From: Prosthecobacter gellanilyticus
GTDB lineage: Bacteria > Verrucomicrobiota > Verrucomicrobiia > Verrucomicrobiales > Verrucomicrobiaceae
Direction of reading: 5' to 3'
DNA length: 64,000 nt
Assembly: GCF_007992435.1 (NCBI RefSeq)
Contig: NZ_BKAG01000003.1
Location: forward strand, 1-64,000
Positions 273-20,591 of this stretch are shown here, piece after piece. The position numbers and the translations under genes were made by a program. The first letter of the stretch is position 1. Each line of letters begins with the position of its first letter. Under the pieces are notes generated by a model, which did not search any database, was not told the origin of the DNA, and saw only the letters and a list, made by a program, of their open reading frames with translations.

Positions 273-347
273 GTCCCCGTAGTTCAATGGATAGAACGAG
301 GGTTTCCTAAACTCTAAATACAGGTTCGATTCCTGTCGGGGATACCA
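273..347 (+). tRNA. tRNA-Arg (anticodon CCT)
   Basis: The sequence folds as a complete cloverleaf. The 7-bp acceptor stem pairs 273-279 with 337-343, ending in a G-U first pair. The D arm contains the TAGTTCAATGG pattern. The anticodon stem AGGGT/ACTCT holds the loop TTCCTAA with anticodon CCT, and the T arm is CAGG-TTCGATT-CCTG. The discriminator is A344 and the CCA tail (345-347) is encoded. It reads AGG arginine codons and resembles the E. coli tRNA-Arg(CCU) in the D and T arms. Small tRNA-Arg genes are common integration sites, but no integrase or repeated 3' end was seen nearby. Confidence 0.95.
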
Positions 348-15295: not shown

Positions 15296-16315
15296 ATGCT
15301 CACTGAACTCGACTCCCTGAAGACCGAAGCCCTCTCCGCGCTCGACACGCTGACTGATGAAGCCGCGCTGGAGGCCTTCCGCATCGACTACCTCGGCAAG
15401 AAGGGCAAGCTCACGGGTCTCAGCGCCGGCATGCGTGATGTGCCGGTCGAGCAGAAGAAGGACGTCGGTGCCAAGCTGAATGAAGTGCGTGACGCCATCA
15501 CGAATGGTCTGGCCACGCGCAAAGAAGCCCTGCAGGCCGCGAAGGATGCAGAAGCGGTGGCTGGCATCGATCTCACGCTGCCCGGCCGCCCAGGTGCAGG
15601 TACTGGTACGCTGCATCCGCTGACGCAGATCCGTGATCTCGCGGTGCGCACGCTTCGCCGCATGGGCTTCACGCTCGCGGATGGTCCTGAAGTGGAGACT
15701 GAGTGGCATTGCTTTGATGCGCTGAACACGCCTGCTGATCATCCAGCGCGCAATGAGAGCGACACTTTCTACATGCCTGATGGCAAGCTGCTGCGCACTC
15801 ACACCAGCAGTGTGCAGATCCGCACGCTGGAAACGGTGAAAGCACTGCCTGTGCGCATCATCGCCCCTGGCGCTGCGTATCGCCGCGATGAGATCGATGC
15901 GACGCACCTGAGTGTCTTCAATCAAATCGAAGCGCTCTTTGTCGACAAAGACGTGAGCCTCGCGGATCTCAAAGGCACGCTGGAGTTCTTCTTCCGCGAA
16001 GTCTTCGGTCCTGGCACGGCGGTGCGCTTCCGTCCGCACTTCTTCCCCTTCACCGAGCCGAGCTTCGAGATCGATGTGAAACTCGAAGCCAAGGGCAAGG
16101 AAGCCCGCTGGATCGAAATCGCCGGTTGCGGCATGGTGGACCCCGCTGTGTTCGCGGCGGTGAGCAAGTCACGTGGTGATGATCTCTTCCATCCTGATCA
16201 GGTGACAGGATTTGCTTTCGGCATGGGCCTCGATCGCCTCGCCATGATTCTTCACGGCATCTCGGACATCCGTCATCTCATCGAGAACGACGTTCGGTTC
16301 CTTCAGCAGTTTTGA
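15296..16315 (+). CDS. pheS: phenylalanyl-tRNA synthetase alpha subunit
   Basis: PheS is the catalytic subunit of the alpha2-beta2 class II enzyme that charges tRNA-Phe. The 339 residues show an N-terminal coiled-coil, then the class II core with HPLTQI, LRTHTSSVQIR (motif 2 region: PGAAYRRDEIDATHLSVFNQIE) and the motif 3 segment GFAFGMGLDRLAM. Length fits the family. The partner pheT lies downstream, separated by a GxxExxY gene and its flanking repeats, a disruption of the usual tight pheST pair. Confidence 0.97.
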   Translation: MLTELDSLKTEALSALDTLTDEAALEAFRIDYLGKKGKLTGLSAGMRDVPVEQKKDVGAKLNEVRDAITNGLATRKEALQAAKDAEAVAGIDLTLPGRPGAGTGTLHPLTQIRDLAVRTLRRMGFTLADGPEVETEWHCFDALNTPADHPARNESDTFYMPDGKLLRTHTSSVQIRTLETVKALPVRIIAPGAAYRRDEIDATHLSVFNQIEALFVDKDVSLADLKGTLEFFFREVFGPGTAVRFRPHFFPFTEPSFEIDVKLEAKGKEARWIEIAGCGMVDPAVFAAVSKSRGDDLFHPDQVTGFAFGMGLDRLAMILHGISDIRHLIENDVRFLQQF

Positions 16316-16331
16316 GGACTGGGGCACCTGA

Positions 16332-16378
16332 TTTTACAGGATTCACAGGATGAACATGATTCACAGGATTTTTCTTTT
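16332..16378 (+). repeat. left inverted repeat of the GxxExxY unit
   Basis: About 47 bp made of degenerate ACAGGATTCACAGGAT-type units followed by TTTTTCTTTT. It starts 17 nt after the pheS stop. Read in reverse complement, the right-hand copy at 16809-16857 matches it closely over its whole length, so the two form a large inverted pair around the gene at 16385-16804. Confidence 0.8.
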
Positions 16379-16384
16379 GGATTT

Positions 16385-16804
16385 ATGACGATGAATCAAC
16401 TCACAGAGAAGGTCATCGGCATGGCCATGGAGATCCATCGGAACATGGGAGCGGGATTCAATGAGTCCATCTACCATCGCTGCATGGAGATCGAGCTTGC
16501 CGCAGCAGGCATCGATTTTGAATCGAAGATCCCTATCGAAGTATTCTACAAAGGAAGGCTGGTTGGCAAATTCGAGGCCGACATGATCATCGTCGTCATC
16601 GACAAGCGCTTGCTGATCGAACTGAAGTCTTGCGAAGCCATCCTCAAAACTCACGAAGCCCAGACCGTGAATTATCTCTCGGCCACGAAAATCGATGACG
16701 GCCTCATCCTGAACTTTGGGGCTCCCAGCCTCCAGTTTAAACACAAATATCGTCTCTATCAGCCACGTGCCGTCAAAGACGTCGAACCTTTCGACCTGCA
16801 TTAA
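16385..16804 (+). CDS. GxxExxY protein (PD-(D/E)XK nuclease-like)
   Basis: The 139-residue protein contains the family signature G24-x-x-E27-x-x-Y30 near the start. A PD-(D/E)XK-like core follows, with D66 in KFEADMIIV and the ExK pair E79/K81 in LLIELKSCE. These are the residues expected to bind metal in this nuclease-like superfamily; the biological function of the family is not established. The gene sits between pheS and pheT, bounded on both sides by matching inverted repeats, and its codon use is less GC-biased than pheS and pheT. An alternative start is M3. This looks like an acquired unit within an otherwise conserved operon. Confidence 0.9.
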   Translation: MTMNQLTEKVIGMAMEIHRNMGAGFNESIYHRCMEIELAAAGIDFESKIPIEVFYKGRLVGKFEADMIIVVIDKRLLIELKSCEAILKTHEAQTVNYLSATKIDDGLILNFGAPSLQFKHKYRLYQPRAVKDVEPFDLH

Positions 16805-16808
16805 AAGG

Positions 16809-16857
16809 AAAAGAAAAAATCCTGTTAATCCTGTCATCTTGTTAATCCTGTAAAAAG
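16809..16857 (-). repeat. right inverted repeat of the GxxExxY unit
   Basis: It begins 5 nt after the GxxExxY stop and ends 18 nt before the pheT start. It consists of AAAAGAAAAAATCCTG followed by TTAATCCTGT-type units. Its reverse complement aligns with 16332-16378, including the terminal oligo-T/C tract, with a few substitutions. Confidence 0.8.
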
Positions 16858-16874
16858 AAGCCCCGCCAATCCCT

Positions 16875-19274
16875 ATGCAAGTCTCCCTCAACTGGCTCTC
16901 GACTCACCTTGATCTGAGTTCTTTCTCGACCCCTCAATTGTCTGACCTTCTGACCTTTGCGGGCATTGAGGTGGAAGGCATTGAGGAGAAGGGTGTCTCG
17001 TCTGACAAAGTGATCGTGGCGCAGATCCAGAGCTTTGAGCCGCTTCCGAATTCGGACAAGCTTAGCATCTGCCAGGTGGATGATGGCAGCGGATCGCTGC
17101 GCCAGATTGTGTGTGGCGCGAAGAATTTCAAAGCAGGTGACAAAGTGCCGCTCGCGCTTCCAGGCGCGGTCCTGCCGGGTGGTTTCCAGATCTCGGAAGG
17201 CAAGCTGCGCGGTGTTGTGTCCAACGGCATGATGTGCAGTGCGAAGGAGCTCGGGATCGGTGAAGACACCGGCGGTCTGTGGATCCTCGATGGTGGCCTG
17301 CCGGTGGGCAAGCCGCTCAACCAGATCGTCGAGAGCGACACGCTGTTTGATCTCGAGATCACGCCGAACCGTTCCGATCTTCTCAGTCATCTTGGCCTGG
17401 CTCGTGAACTCGCCGCACTCACTGGATTGTCGCTGAAGAGTGAGCGCGATCACCGCAAGACGACCTCCACAGCACGTGCGGCGAAGGCGGATGAAGTGGC
17501 GCTCGAAGATACTGAAGGCTGCCCCTACTACACGGCCCGTGTGATCAAAGGTGTAAAGGTGGGTCCGAGCCCTGAGTGGCTCAAGACAAGGCTCGAAAGC
17601 ATCGGCCTGCGTCCGATCAATAACATCGTCGACATCACGAACTATGTGATGATGGAAATGGGGCAGTCGCTGCATTGCTTTGACCTCGACAAGCTGCAGG
17701 GCGGCATTGCCGTGCGCCGTGCGAAAGAGGGTGAGAAGATCCTCGCTCTAGATGGTCAGGAGTATTCTTTGTTAGTCGAAGACCTCGTCATCACGGATGG
17801 CCAGCGTCCGGTGGCCATCGCTGGCGTCATGGGCGGTGAGGAGACCGGTGTCGTTGAAGGCAGCACGAACATTCTTCTGGAAGCCGCTTACTTTGCGCCT
17901 TCCACGGTGCGCCGCACGGCGCGTCGTCTGAACCTGCATTCGGACTCCAGCTACCGCTTTGAGCGCGGCATCGACCCGCAGCAGGTGCATGGTGGCAGTG
18001 ACCTCGCCACAAAGCTCATTCTCGAAATCGCCGGCGGGACCGCCGAGGCAGAAATCCGCGTCGCGGGTGAAGCGCCAACACTCGTCAACGACGTCGTGCT
18101 GGATGAAGTGCGTGCGCACAAGCTGCTCGGCATCAGCGAGCTCAAGACGGAAGAGGCTCATGATATCCTCAGCAAGCTGGGCCTCATCAAGAAGAGCGGT
18201 GACGCGGCTGCCAGCACCTGGAGCATTCCGAGCTACCGTCTCGACCTCCTGCGCAGCGTGGATCTGGTGGAAGAGATCGCCCGCGTGATCGGTCTCGACC
18301 GTGTGCCGGCGAAGTTCACCGCCGCCTTCGCGCAAGGTGATGGCACGGACAAGATTTACGATCACGCCATGCAGCTCCGCCAGGCGCTGGCGAACCGTGG
18401 CTTCAATGAGGCGCAGACGCTGCGTCTCATCGCCACCGGCCAAACCAATGATGCTCTTGGCAATCCGACCGGTGGTCTCGCCGCGCTGAAGAATCCGCTT
18501 TCTGAAGATCACACCACGCTGCGTCCAAGCATCGTCCCAGGTCTGCTGGCCAGCGCTGCGCTGAACGTGCGCCAGGGCGCCGACCGTCTGCGCTTGTTTG
18601 AGATCGGCCGTGTGTTCCTGAAGATGCCGAACGGCATGGTGCGTGAAGAGGAACGTCTCGCCATTCTTCTCAGCGGCCCGGTGGCACCTTCCACCTGGCA
18701 TGCCCGCGAGCCGAAGGCCGCGGACATTTTTGACCTGCGCGGTCTGGTGGAGTCCCTTCCAGGCGTCTCCAGTGTGGAGATCAAGCCACTGAAGGACAAC
18801 GGAACCTTCCTGCTTCACAGCGAGCTGAAGGCTGGCAACCGCGTGCTTGGCTGGATCGCCCAGGTGCATCCGGCTCGTGCGCGTGCGCTGGATGCCCGCA
18901 CGCCTGTGTATGTCGTGGAGCTTCTGCTCAGCGCGCTGCGCCAGGGCAGCGCTGGTCCCGCGAAGTTCACGGATCTGCCGCGTTTCCCATCGATCACACG
19001 CGACGTGGCCTTTGAGCTCTCCACCGATGTCTCGAACGCCAAGGTCACCGCCTTCTTCGGCAGCGTGAAAGAGCCTCTGCTCATCAGCACCGCGCTCTTT
19101 GACGTGTTTGCCGACCCGAGCGGCACCAAGCTTCCGAAGGATCGCAAGTCCCTCGCCTGGACCCTGACCTATCGCGCCTCTGACAAGACCCTCGAAACCG
19201 CCGAAGTCGATGCCGCGCATAGCCGCATCGTCGCCGCGCTGGAGAAGGCCTTGCCGGTGGTGGTAAGGCGGTGA
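16875..19274 (+). CDS. pheT: phenylalanyl-tRNA synthetase beta subunit
   Basis: PheT is the large, tRNA-binding and editing subunit of phenylalanyl-tRNA synthetase. The 799-residue protein has the N-terminal tRNA-binding OB domain (residues 40-150; HPN-type segment EPLPNSDKLSICQVDDG), the B3/B4 editing domain (NIVDITNYVMMEMGQSLHCFD), the B5 domain and the C-terminal anticodon-binding ferredoxin-fold domain (FPSITRDVAFEL). Length fits the family (about 795). It should form the enzyme with PheS despite the inserted gene between them. Confidence 0.97.
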   Translation: MQVSLNWLSTHLDLSSFSTPQLSDLLTFAGIEVEGIEEKGVSSDKVIVAQIQSFEPLPNSDKLSICQVDDGSGSLRQIVCGAKNFKAGDKVPLALPGAVLPGGFQISEGKLRGVVSNGMMCSAKELGIGEDTGGLWILDGGLPVGKPLNQIVESDTLFDLEITPNRSDLLSHLGLARELAALTGLSLKSERDHRKTTSTARAAKADEVALEDTEGCPYYTARVIKGVKVGPSPEWLKTRLESIGLRPINNIVDITNYVMMEMGQSLHCFDLDKLQGGIAVRRAKEGEKILALDGQEYSLLVEDLVITDGQRPVAIAGVMGGEETGVVEGSTNILLEAAYFAPSTVRRTARRLNLHSDSSYRFERGIDPQQVHGGSDLATKLILEIAGGTAEAEIRVAGEAPTLVNDVVLDEVRAHKLLGISELKTEEAHDILSKLGLIKKSGDAAASTWSIPSYRLDLLRSVDLVEEIARVIGLDRVPAKFTAAFAQGDGTDKIYDHAMQLRQALANRGFNEAQTLRLIATGQTNDALGNPTGGLAALKNPLSEDHTTLRPSIVPGLLASAALNVRQGADRLRLFEIGRVFLKMPNGMVREEERLAILLSGPVAPSTWHAREPKAADIFDLRGLVESLPGVSSVEIKPLKDNGTFLLHSELKAGNRVLGWIAQVHPARARALDARTPVYVVELLLSALRQGSAGPAKFTDLPRFPSITRDVAFELSTDVSNAKVTAFFGSVKEPLLISTALFDVFADPSGTKLPKDRKSLAWTLTYRASDKTLETAEVDAAHSRIVAALEKALPVVVRR

Positions 19275-19998: not shown

Positions 19999-20322
19999 TC
20001 AAACTGGCAGATCGCCACCTTCCAGAGGCTTTCGAGAATGGTGTCGCACCGAGAGGATGACGACACGTTCTCCGGTGATGGTGAACAAGATGCGAAACTG
20101 GCTCCGGCGTTTGCGGAAGAGTAACTGGCGTATCTCCGCGGGAAACCGGGAGCTTTCAGAAGCGAGTCGATGACGCTCTGGCGAGCTCGACAGCGATTCC
20201 ACCTTGCTGATGATTTCCTCACGCCAGCGGATGGCCGACAAGGGAGCCCGCATTTGGATCCAGCGGTAGACCTCCTCCAATTCACTCTGAGCCTGCAGGG
20301 TGTACTCGACCTCGTAGCTCAT
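19999..20322 (-). CDS. ParE/RelE-superfamily toxin
   Basis: This 107-residue protein has the compact alpha-beta fold pattern of ParE/RelE toxins: an N-terminal strand and two helices (AQSELEEVYRWIQ), then strands with FRKRRSQFRILFTITGERVVILSVRHHSR. It starts 4 nt inside the end of the antitoxin gene (ATGA overlap), the standard arrangement for these pairs. ParE-type members inhibit gyrase and RelE-type members cut mRNA; the ParE type is more likely from the sequence, but not certain. Confidence 0.88.
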   Translation of the reverse strand: MSYEVEYTLQAQSELEEVYRWIQMRAPLSAIRWREEIISKVESLSSSPERHRLASESSRFPAEIRQLLFRKRRSQFRILFTITGERVVILSVRHHSRKPLEGGDLPV

Positions 20323-20591
20323 AGCTCCCGCAGCTTTTGATGCACCACCTTGGCAGACACGGTCTTCCCAGCGGCCATTTGTTGAAGGCTGATTTGGACT
20401 GACTTGATGGCAGAGAGCTCCTCGATCGCATCTTGCATCTTGGCATAGGCATCACGGCCGAGCAAAACGGCCTCGGCGCGTCCATTAACCGTGAGCACCT
20501 GCGGCTTGCCGGTTTTGTTCACTCGCTTGAGGCAACTCTTCGCGTTCCGCTGAAAAGCACTCAGGGGCTGGATGTCATCAAGATGAATCAT
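20319..20591 (-). CDS. Phd/YefM-family antitoxin
   Basis: The 90-residue protein has the Phd/YefM N-terminal DNA-binding pattern (IQPLSAFQRNAKSCLKRVNKTGKPQVLTVNGRAEAVLLG, given here only as a landmark for residues 8-46) and a C-terminal helical part that should wrap the toxin. It is the upstream gene of the pair, and a perfect 18-bp palindrome lies just before it, as expected for autoregulation by the antitoxin or complex. It shares ATGA with the toxin start. Confidence 0.88.
   Translation of the reverse strand: MIHLDDIQPLSAFQRNAKSCLKRVNKTGKPQVLTVNGRAEAVLLGRDAYAKMQDAIEELSAIKSVQISLQQMAAGKTVSAKVVHQKLREL

Follow-up and report, generated by a model that had tools for sequence, protein, structure and literature searches.

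One of the closest known counterparts of the system reported here is formed by REPINs and their RAYT proteins (REPtron, TnpA-REP). According to two papers (PMC3116915; PMC8266576), REPIN-RAYT repeats are dispersed in extragenic space, largely as inverted doublets, and fall into several gene-repeat classes; the gene is present as a single copy, and its phylogeny at the level of species agrees for the most part with that of the species themselves. The intervening sequences of 23S rRNA with their S23/IVP protein carry a small ORF in a loop between inverted arms; in Coxiella, such a sequence is a 428-nt element bearing an ORF and is termed a selfish genetic element in PMC4990558. MITEs and insertion sequences combine a gene-bearing copy with many shorter gene-free copies that have related ends. 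GxxExxY proteins, to our knowledge, constitute a widespread family without known function.

The GxxExxY genes analysed here resemble each of these systems in part. With REPIN-RAYT they share a dedicated gene beside repeats of the kind dispersed in the genome, as well as the division into several gene-repeat classes, different genes having classes of their own. The differences are that the RAYT protein is of the HUH/Y1 type while GxxExxY has a predicted PD-(D/E)XK fold, and that a REPIN-RAYT repeat is one short hairpin while the GxxExxY arms are tandem arrays of 8-10-nt units in which a CRCnRA-like core is frequent. Because the protein is not HUH, we place the GxxExxY system outside REPIN-RAYT. 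A small ORF enclosed by inverted arms is common to 23S rRNA intervening sequences and GxxExxY, and the IVP genes of the genomes studied also have arms of tandem units; however, the protein is unrelated, the IVP units are of GTTTCAA, GTTGACAGTG and AGTGATC types, and the unit analysed here is not in rRNA. A gene-bearing copy with many shorter gene-free copies is likewise shared with MITEs and insertion sequences, unlike which the GxxExxY unit has no known transposase and shows no target-site duplication visible by eye in the junctions, and its gene (clade A, see below) was seen at no second site within the genus.

The window, i.e., the whole stretch of 64,000 nucleotides of Prosthecobacter gellanilyticus that was analysed (contig NZ_BKAG01000003.1, positions 1 to 64,000), contains such a gene between pheS and pheT. 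A sequence-only reading of this DNA had placed the end of pheS at 16315, the GxxExxY gene at 16385-16804 and the start of pheT at 16875, and these coordinates are correct. The features of the locus are the following:

15296..16315, plus strand: pheS, phenylalanyl-tRNA synthetase alpha, the upstream neighbour (Pfam tRNA-synt_2d, E 7.7e-87)
16316..16384, plus strand: left inverted arm, an ACAGGATTn array with its core at 16332-16378, T-rich ends and an outer GGGGC stem
16385..16804, plus strand: GxxExxY protein of 139 aa, a predicted PD-(D/E)XK nuclease (E27, D66, E79xK81, Q93xxxY97)
16805..16867, minus strand: right inverted arm, an ATCCTGT array with its core at 16810-16855 and an outer GCCCC
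16875..19274, plus strand: pheT, phenylalanyl-tRNA synthetase beta, the downstream neighbour (Pfam B3_4, B5, FDX-ACB, tRNA_bind)

The inverted arms described earlier around the gene were recovered between 16332-16378 and 16810-16855 in the form of two segments without gaps, with 84% and 91% complementarity. Their gapped alignment has a local score of 58, and a score of at least 50 occurs in 3 of 747 shifted control intervals around such genes. The arms are indeed built of short sub-units, ACAGGATTn at 9-nt spacing, and the right arm, said to end 18 nt before pheT, stops 17-19 nt before it. Since a GGGGC/GCCCC pair outside the arms lengthens the stem, the element makes up nearly the whole pheS-pheT intergenic region, about 16316-16867. 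In the RNA fold predicted for the element the arms are paired (z -5.6), and 0 of 100 shuffles were equally good. An Rfam search of 9 sources for a palindrome RNA family yielded a single match at gathering score, to a tRNA. Elsewhere in the window there are a tRNA gene (273-344, plus strand; Rfam RF00005, 64.6 bits) and two overlapping small ORFs on the minus strand (19999-20322 and 20319-20591) that resemble, by eye, a toxin-antitoxin pair.

The window protein matches TIGR04256 (E 6.8e-36, 123.2 bits against a cut-off of 35) and PF13366 (E 2.1e-35, 122 bits against a cut-off of 22). A profile search at E 0.001 returned nothing beyond these two, no transposase family and in particular no HUH Y1 transposase; nor is the protein an IVP (PF05635), and the window unit lies outside 23S rRNA. 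With the AlphaFold2 model (pLDDT 86.9), the best Foldseek match is SSO0001 (4ic1, E 3.1e-5), and AddAB, MGME1 and Hjc are also found. VIA-align gave a best Z of 10.5 at an rmsd of 7.9 (4ic1_G) and a next one of 9.4 (CinB, 7et0_C), so that the fold match implies no function. The model points to a Cas4/RecB/Hjc-like PD-(D/E)XK fold and hence to a predicted nuclease, and the catalytic residues E27/D66/E79/K81 are all present. GxxExxY shares with the Cas4/RecB-like and Hjc-like nucleases the fold and the motif layout E, D, ExK, QxxxY, the last of which is a mark of RecB and Cas4. Unlike them, it has only about 130 residues and is tied to palindromic repeats. A role as a defence gene was discarded, since a PADLOC search with the protein gave 0 families at E 0.01. 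Carriage as plasmid or phage cargo was dropped as well, given that at E 1e-5 the family matched 8 plasmids among 72,556 records, each of them predicted to be non-mobilizable, and no phage among 50,697 records, and that PHROGs had no match to the protein.

The window gene exemplifies a wider rule, by which most GxxExxY genes are flanked by inverted arrays with units of 8-10 nt. Arms were scored by the inverted similarity of the two 300-nt flanks, with a threshold score of 28, and the controls were intervals shifted along the same DNA. Arms flank 88 of 134 GxxExxY domains of the same order, as compared to 9 of 747 controls. This sample, which holds many orthologues, comprises 134 of 136 distinct domains (two were excluded because of too short a flank) and was assembled from automatically returned loci and 80 regions chosen from match lists. 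A second sample, from public species genomes, consists of the best 80 of at least 557 loci confirmed for one peptide pattern; here 61 of 79 loci (the flank of L293 being too short) have arms vs. 7 of 437 controls. By record title, the 79 testable loci among these best 80 of at least 557 span some 16 phyla, class names being assigned to what we take to be their phyla, and 15 of the phyla have at least one positive. Among periods of 7-11, the best is 8-10 in 83 of the 88 armed loci of the order and in 58 of the 61 among the best 80 of at least 557. An arm with two or more CRCnRA or CAGGA cores is present at 73/88 and 53/61 of these loci, respectively, as compared to about 4 each after shuffling; the CRCnRA core was picked after the data had been seen, as were the clade cut-offs of 55%, 57% and 70%. 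The genomes are partly incomplete drafts. Four clear GxxExxY domains are present in the genome of P. gellanilyticus itself: besides that of the window, two are flanked by inverted arrays whose units are ACCGCTAAT-like and ACCACTAATGG-like, and the fourth has neither arms nor catalytic residues. Absence of the repeat from GxxExxY genes elsewhere had been named as a refuting observation; it holds true for the window unit, but most of these genes carry arms of other units (46 of the 134 have none at the threshold).

The presence of arms is linked to the active site. They surround 87 of 112 domains with an intact E/D/(E,D)xK motif vs. 1 of 22 others (Fisher 7e-11), a p value that overstates independence because the 22, sorted by eye, form two groups and a single case: 14 L004-like domains, 7 second domains of fusions and 1 that starts past the motif. 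In the sole armed domain among the 22 the match starts after the motif. Ten of the 25 intact domains without arms lie in long reading frames (at least 777 nt, counted from the domain start), and in 5 of these ten a second GxxExxY domain is present. The L004-like group is armless and lacks the full catalytic set at 14 loci (L004, which is C25:76032 of the own genome, L062, L064, L065, L167, L170-L177 and L192); its members may be domesticated binding proteins. At L048, L051, L113, L138, L181, L182 and L187, an intact GxxExxY domain is fused in tandem to a degenerate one, and arms are absent from such fusions wherever the flanks permitted testing.

As far as the arm sequences tell, the unit tends to follow the GxxExxY clade, also across loci and phyla. 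Clades at 55% identity or more mostly have a single unit type (ACAGGATTn, CGCAAAAAGG, ACCACGGAATACAC, ATCCACAGATT, ACCACTAATGG, CCACAGAGG, CCGCAGAGGGGC and others). Arm similarity increases with protein identity (Mantel test, 0 of 500 permutations), and it does so with rho 0.356 (0 of 1000 permutations) in the best 80 of at least 557 named loci taken alone. Pairs at different loci, defined by flanking ORFs without a mutual hit, share arms in 11 of 12 cases at a protein identity of at least 0.75, at least one of the 12 (L102-L104) being probably pheST cut by contig ends; the share is roughly 37% of 276 pairs at 45-75% identity and at most 1% below 0.45. Among the best 80 of at least 557 named loci, ACAGGATT-type units stand beside clade-A-like genes of planctomycete (L218), syntrophobacterial (L219) and proteobacterial (L229) records, and neither pheS nor pheT was found in these 2-3.4-kb loci. 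A counter-example from the same best 80 of at least 557 is L221, which is 57% identical to the clade-A-type query yet has CACGAAA units. This correspondence between unit and protein clade, which extends to separate loci and other phyla, supports the proposal that gene and arms behave as one cassette. It was expected that, among the loci of a clade, the left and right arm of one locus would be each other's closest match; this fails in clade A and partly holds elsewhere, the two arms exceeding all clade cross pairs in 26 of 76 loci and in 2 of 19 of clade A.

The pheS-pheT junction is a hotspot for palindromes of several unit families in one genus (L066-L095, L328-L343, L185). In 47 genomes, 17 junctions hold the gene with its arms (G055, at a contig end, is counted as probable), one (G023) holds a lone ACAGGATT remnant, and 11 hold gene-free palindromes or half-palindromes of CCGCAGAGG, ACCACGAATG/ACTAATG and GACAGnAGAATGGG types. 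In the remaining 18, which are empty, pheS and pheT are 14-55 nt apart. Relatives thus do have the empty site that was to be looked for, and the view of pheST as a repeated landing place is supported by these counts. In G041 the gene is oriented opposite to the operon. The clade-A gene gave 17 hits of at least 57% identity in 48 genomes, one per genome, of which 16 are at pheST and the 17th (G055) is at a contig end. Since one gene per genome, at no second site and only at pheST, was found, the notion of a self-mobilising or homing element is unsupported and was given up.

In the pheST tree, the pattern in one clade suggests that the gene was inserted long ago and lost several times; the gene also stands at two other places of the tree. 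Read by eye, it suggests losses in G043, G044, G005, G009, G023 and G054; supports are low near G043, G044, G005 and G000, and given these low supports the number of gains at pheST may be anything from 1 to 3. The occupied G006 and the empty G044 are close (97% of PheS). In the lower tree clade, pheS of occupied sites ends with Phe-stop while that of the empty G043, G044, G005 and G052 ends with Ala-stop; pheS of the empty G009 ends with Phe-stop. GxxExxY genes with other units were also seen adjoining pheT in records of Ktedonobacteria, Prevotella and Prevotellaceae, 3 of the best 80 of at least 557 named loci (L221, 1501-3339; L232 and L287, around 1400-1860). The genes of Prevotella and Prevotellaceae are likely orthologues, and L292 has a weak PheT-like match only.

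The own genome (7.65 Mb, 137 contigs) has 76 matches of ACAGGATTNACAGGAT at up to 2 mismatches, against 2 for the reversed-pattern control; some are convergent pairs with a short loop, others single arms. Over four genomes, 37 of 72 dispersed loci hold a convergent pair, with a median span of 50 nt. For the sequence-only reading, wide gene-free occurrence of the repeat was to count as a refutation; it is found, but a REP-like system would predict it as well. Judged by eye, 16 of 20 fetched loci of G003 (L379-L398) are near-identical copies of a longer ACAGGATT-unit element with a variable number of units, and G037 has single left arms with similar flanks, which together suggest a recent spread. 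In the four genomes compared, the dispersed copies most like the gene arms of their own genome number 11/17 in G000, 4/20 in G037, 3/15 in G017 and 11/20 in G003.

Copy number is higher where the gene is present. The median is 32 in the 17 genomes with the clade-A gene and 1.5 in the 30 without it (p 2.7e-6, and p 4e-4 once 4 hits are deducted to allow for the arms that the gene itself brings). When the pheST tree is taken into account in a regression, p is 0.026 for lambda 0.9, which was the likeliest among five values, and 0.052 for lambda 1. For a second family the medians are 11.5 (8 genomes with the gene) and 1.0 (40 without; p 1.2e-4), with p 0.068 after the own-gene correction. Many copies without the gene occur in G054 (43), G023 (29) and G020 (22), and the gene with few copies in G006 (1), G019 (4) and G041 (5). 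In G006 (L148/L069), both arms have turned together from ACAGGATT to ACAGGAGG/ACAGGAAGG. This unit has 4 hits in the G006 genome, of which 2 are the gene's arms, with one further place; the idea that it had become the genome-wide unit of G006 failed, as it did not spread.

We consider it somewhat more probable than the opposite that GxxExxY is a cognate nuclease which maintains or spreads its palindromes; the window unit would then be the copy with the gene in a REP-like system. As to the layout, the loop of a palindrome built of tandem 8-10-nt units holds the small predicted PD-(D/E)XK protein, and short gene-free palindromes of the matching unit are scattered through the same genome, clades tending to have their own unit. 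We infer that GxxExxY would recognise and bind its unit once the palindrome has folded, be it into a hairpin of single-stranded DNA or into a cruciform, and that it would nick the folded unit and so promote copying into, or upkeep at, intergenic sites. The gene itself would be passed mostly by descent, with losses. In favour of this reading are the arms and their wide occurrence, the ties of the unit to the protein clade and of the arms to the active site, the dispersed copies with their higher number in genomes that have the gene, and the range of junction states. Against it are the finding of the clade-A gene at pheST only, the dispersed copies that are more like the arms of another genome, the many loci whose two arms do not match best, the genomes in which gene and copy number disagree, the G006 unit that did not spread, the p values of the corrected second family and of lambda 1, the units of L221, and the layout of the IVP genes.

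The main rival holds that the palindromes owe their spread to something else, such as replication slippage, a reverse transcriptase or host repair, and that GxxExxY is cargo or a regulator binding its own element. What makes it serious is the result for the 23S_rRNA_IVP genes (PF05635), a four-helix family different from GxxExxY, which would be a second cargo: 21 of 30 (L298-L327) are flanked by inverted tandem-unit arrays of other units, against 2 of 161 controls, so that the layout does not require a nuclease. The IVP genes are possibly a sister system. That no movement of the gene is seen within the genus and that copy numbers are high without it (G054, G020; in the second family G002, G051) would also fit a passenger. 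Set against this are the agreement of the unit with the GxxExxY clade, seen at separate loci and in several phyla, and the absence of arms from lineages without the catalytic residues, and we regard this explanation as rather unlikely, at perhaps one chance in a handful.

It is still less probable that the arms act at the level of RNA, a transcript stem, RNase III-processed or terminating, letting the gene sit harmlessly in the operon as 23S rRNA intervening sequences do. The pairing of the arms in the predicted RNA, the joint change of both G006 arms and the Coxiella element would suit such insulation. However, it leaves the unit-clade link, the active-site link and the gene-free copies elsewhere unexplained, and the gene of G041 runs against the direction of the operon.

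An addiction module akin to toxin-antitoxin systems, in which the repeat, as RNA or as DNA, would hold a toxic nuclease in check and so keep the cassette in place, could account for the persistence of the gene at one locus in a clade; repeat-RNA antitoxins are arrays of short repeats, which the arms recall. The losses hinted at by the tree in several lineages, the empty PADLOC result and the dispersed copies, which it leaves unexplained, speak against it, and we think it very improbable.

RAYT-type genes served as a positive control. Inverted flanking repeats occur at 25 of 29 Y1 loci of the genus, by eye mostly as GC-rich short hairpins, and 6 of these 25 have at least two matches to the loose core pattern. 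The genus that has these GxxExxY genes also has Y1 genes, whose inverted repeats look different. Y1_Tnp genes are found in 47 of 48 genomes, with 19 matches in the own genome and up to 27 in relatives. That these abundant transposases move the palindromes, GxxExxY being unrelated, is the least credible reading and was rejected as the main one, since the Y1 repeats differ, a ACAGGATT site (up to 1 mismatch) is present in none of 30 Y1 loci, ACAGGATT counts over the 48 genomes track GxxExxY presence (rho 0.66) more than Y1 counts (rho 0.25, p 0.09), and G048 has 44 hits with only one weak Y1 match.

Our literature searches found no description of GxxExxY together with repeats; two papers name the family once each in passing, and 'PF13366' appears once in PMC9756366. 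The tie between GxxExxY and a matching palindrome offers a candidate substrate for the family. We would put at even chances the broader proposal that GxxExxY proteins across many phyla are dedicated nucleases of unrecognised CRCnRA-type palindromes, a second, independent answer to the REPIN-RAYT problem by PD-(D/E)XK in place of HUH chemistry, in which unit and protein co-evolve by clade, with IVP as a third class. Short repeats of this type are very common in environmental bacterial genomes. If the proposal is true, it would give them an origin, and nuclease-palindrome pairs would have arisen more than once.
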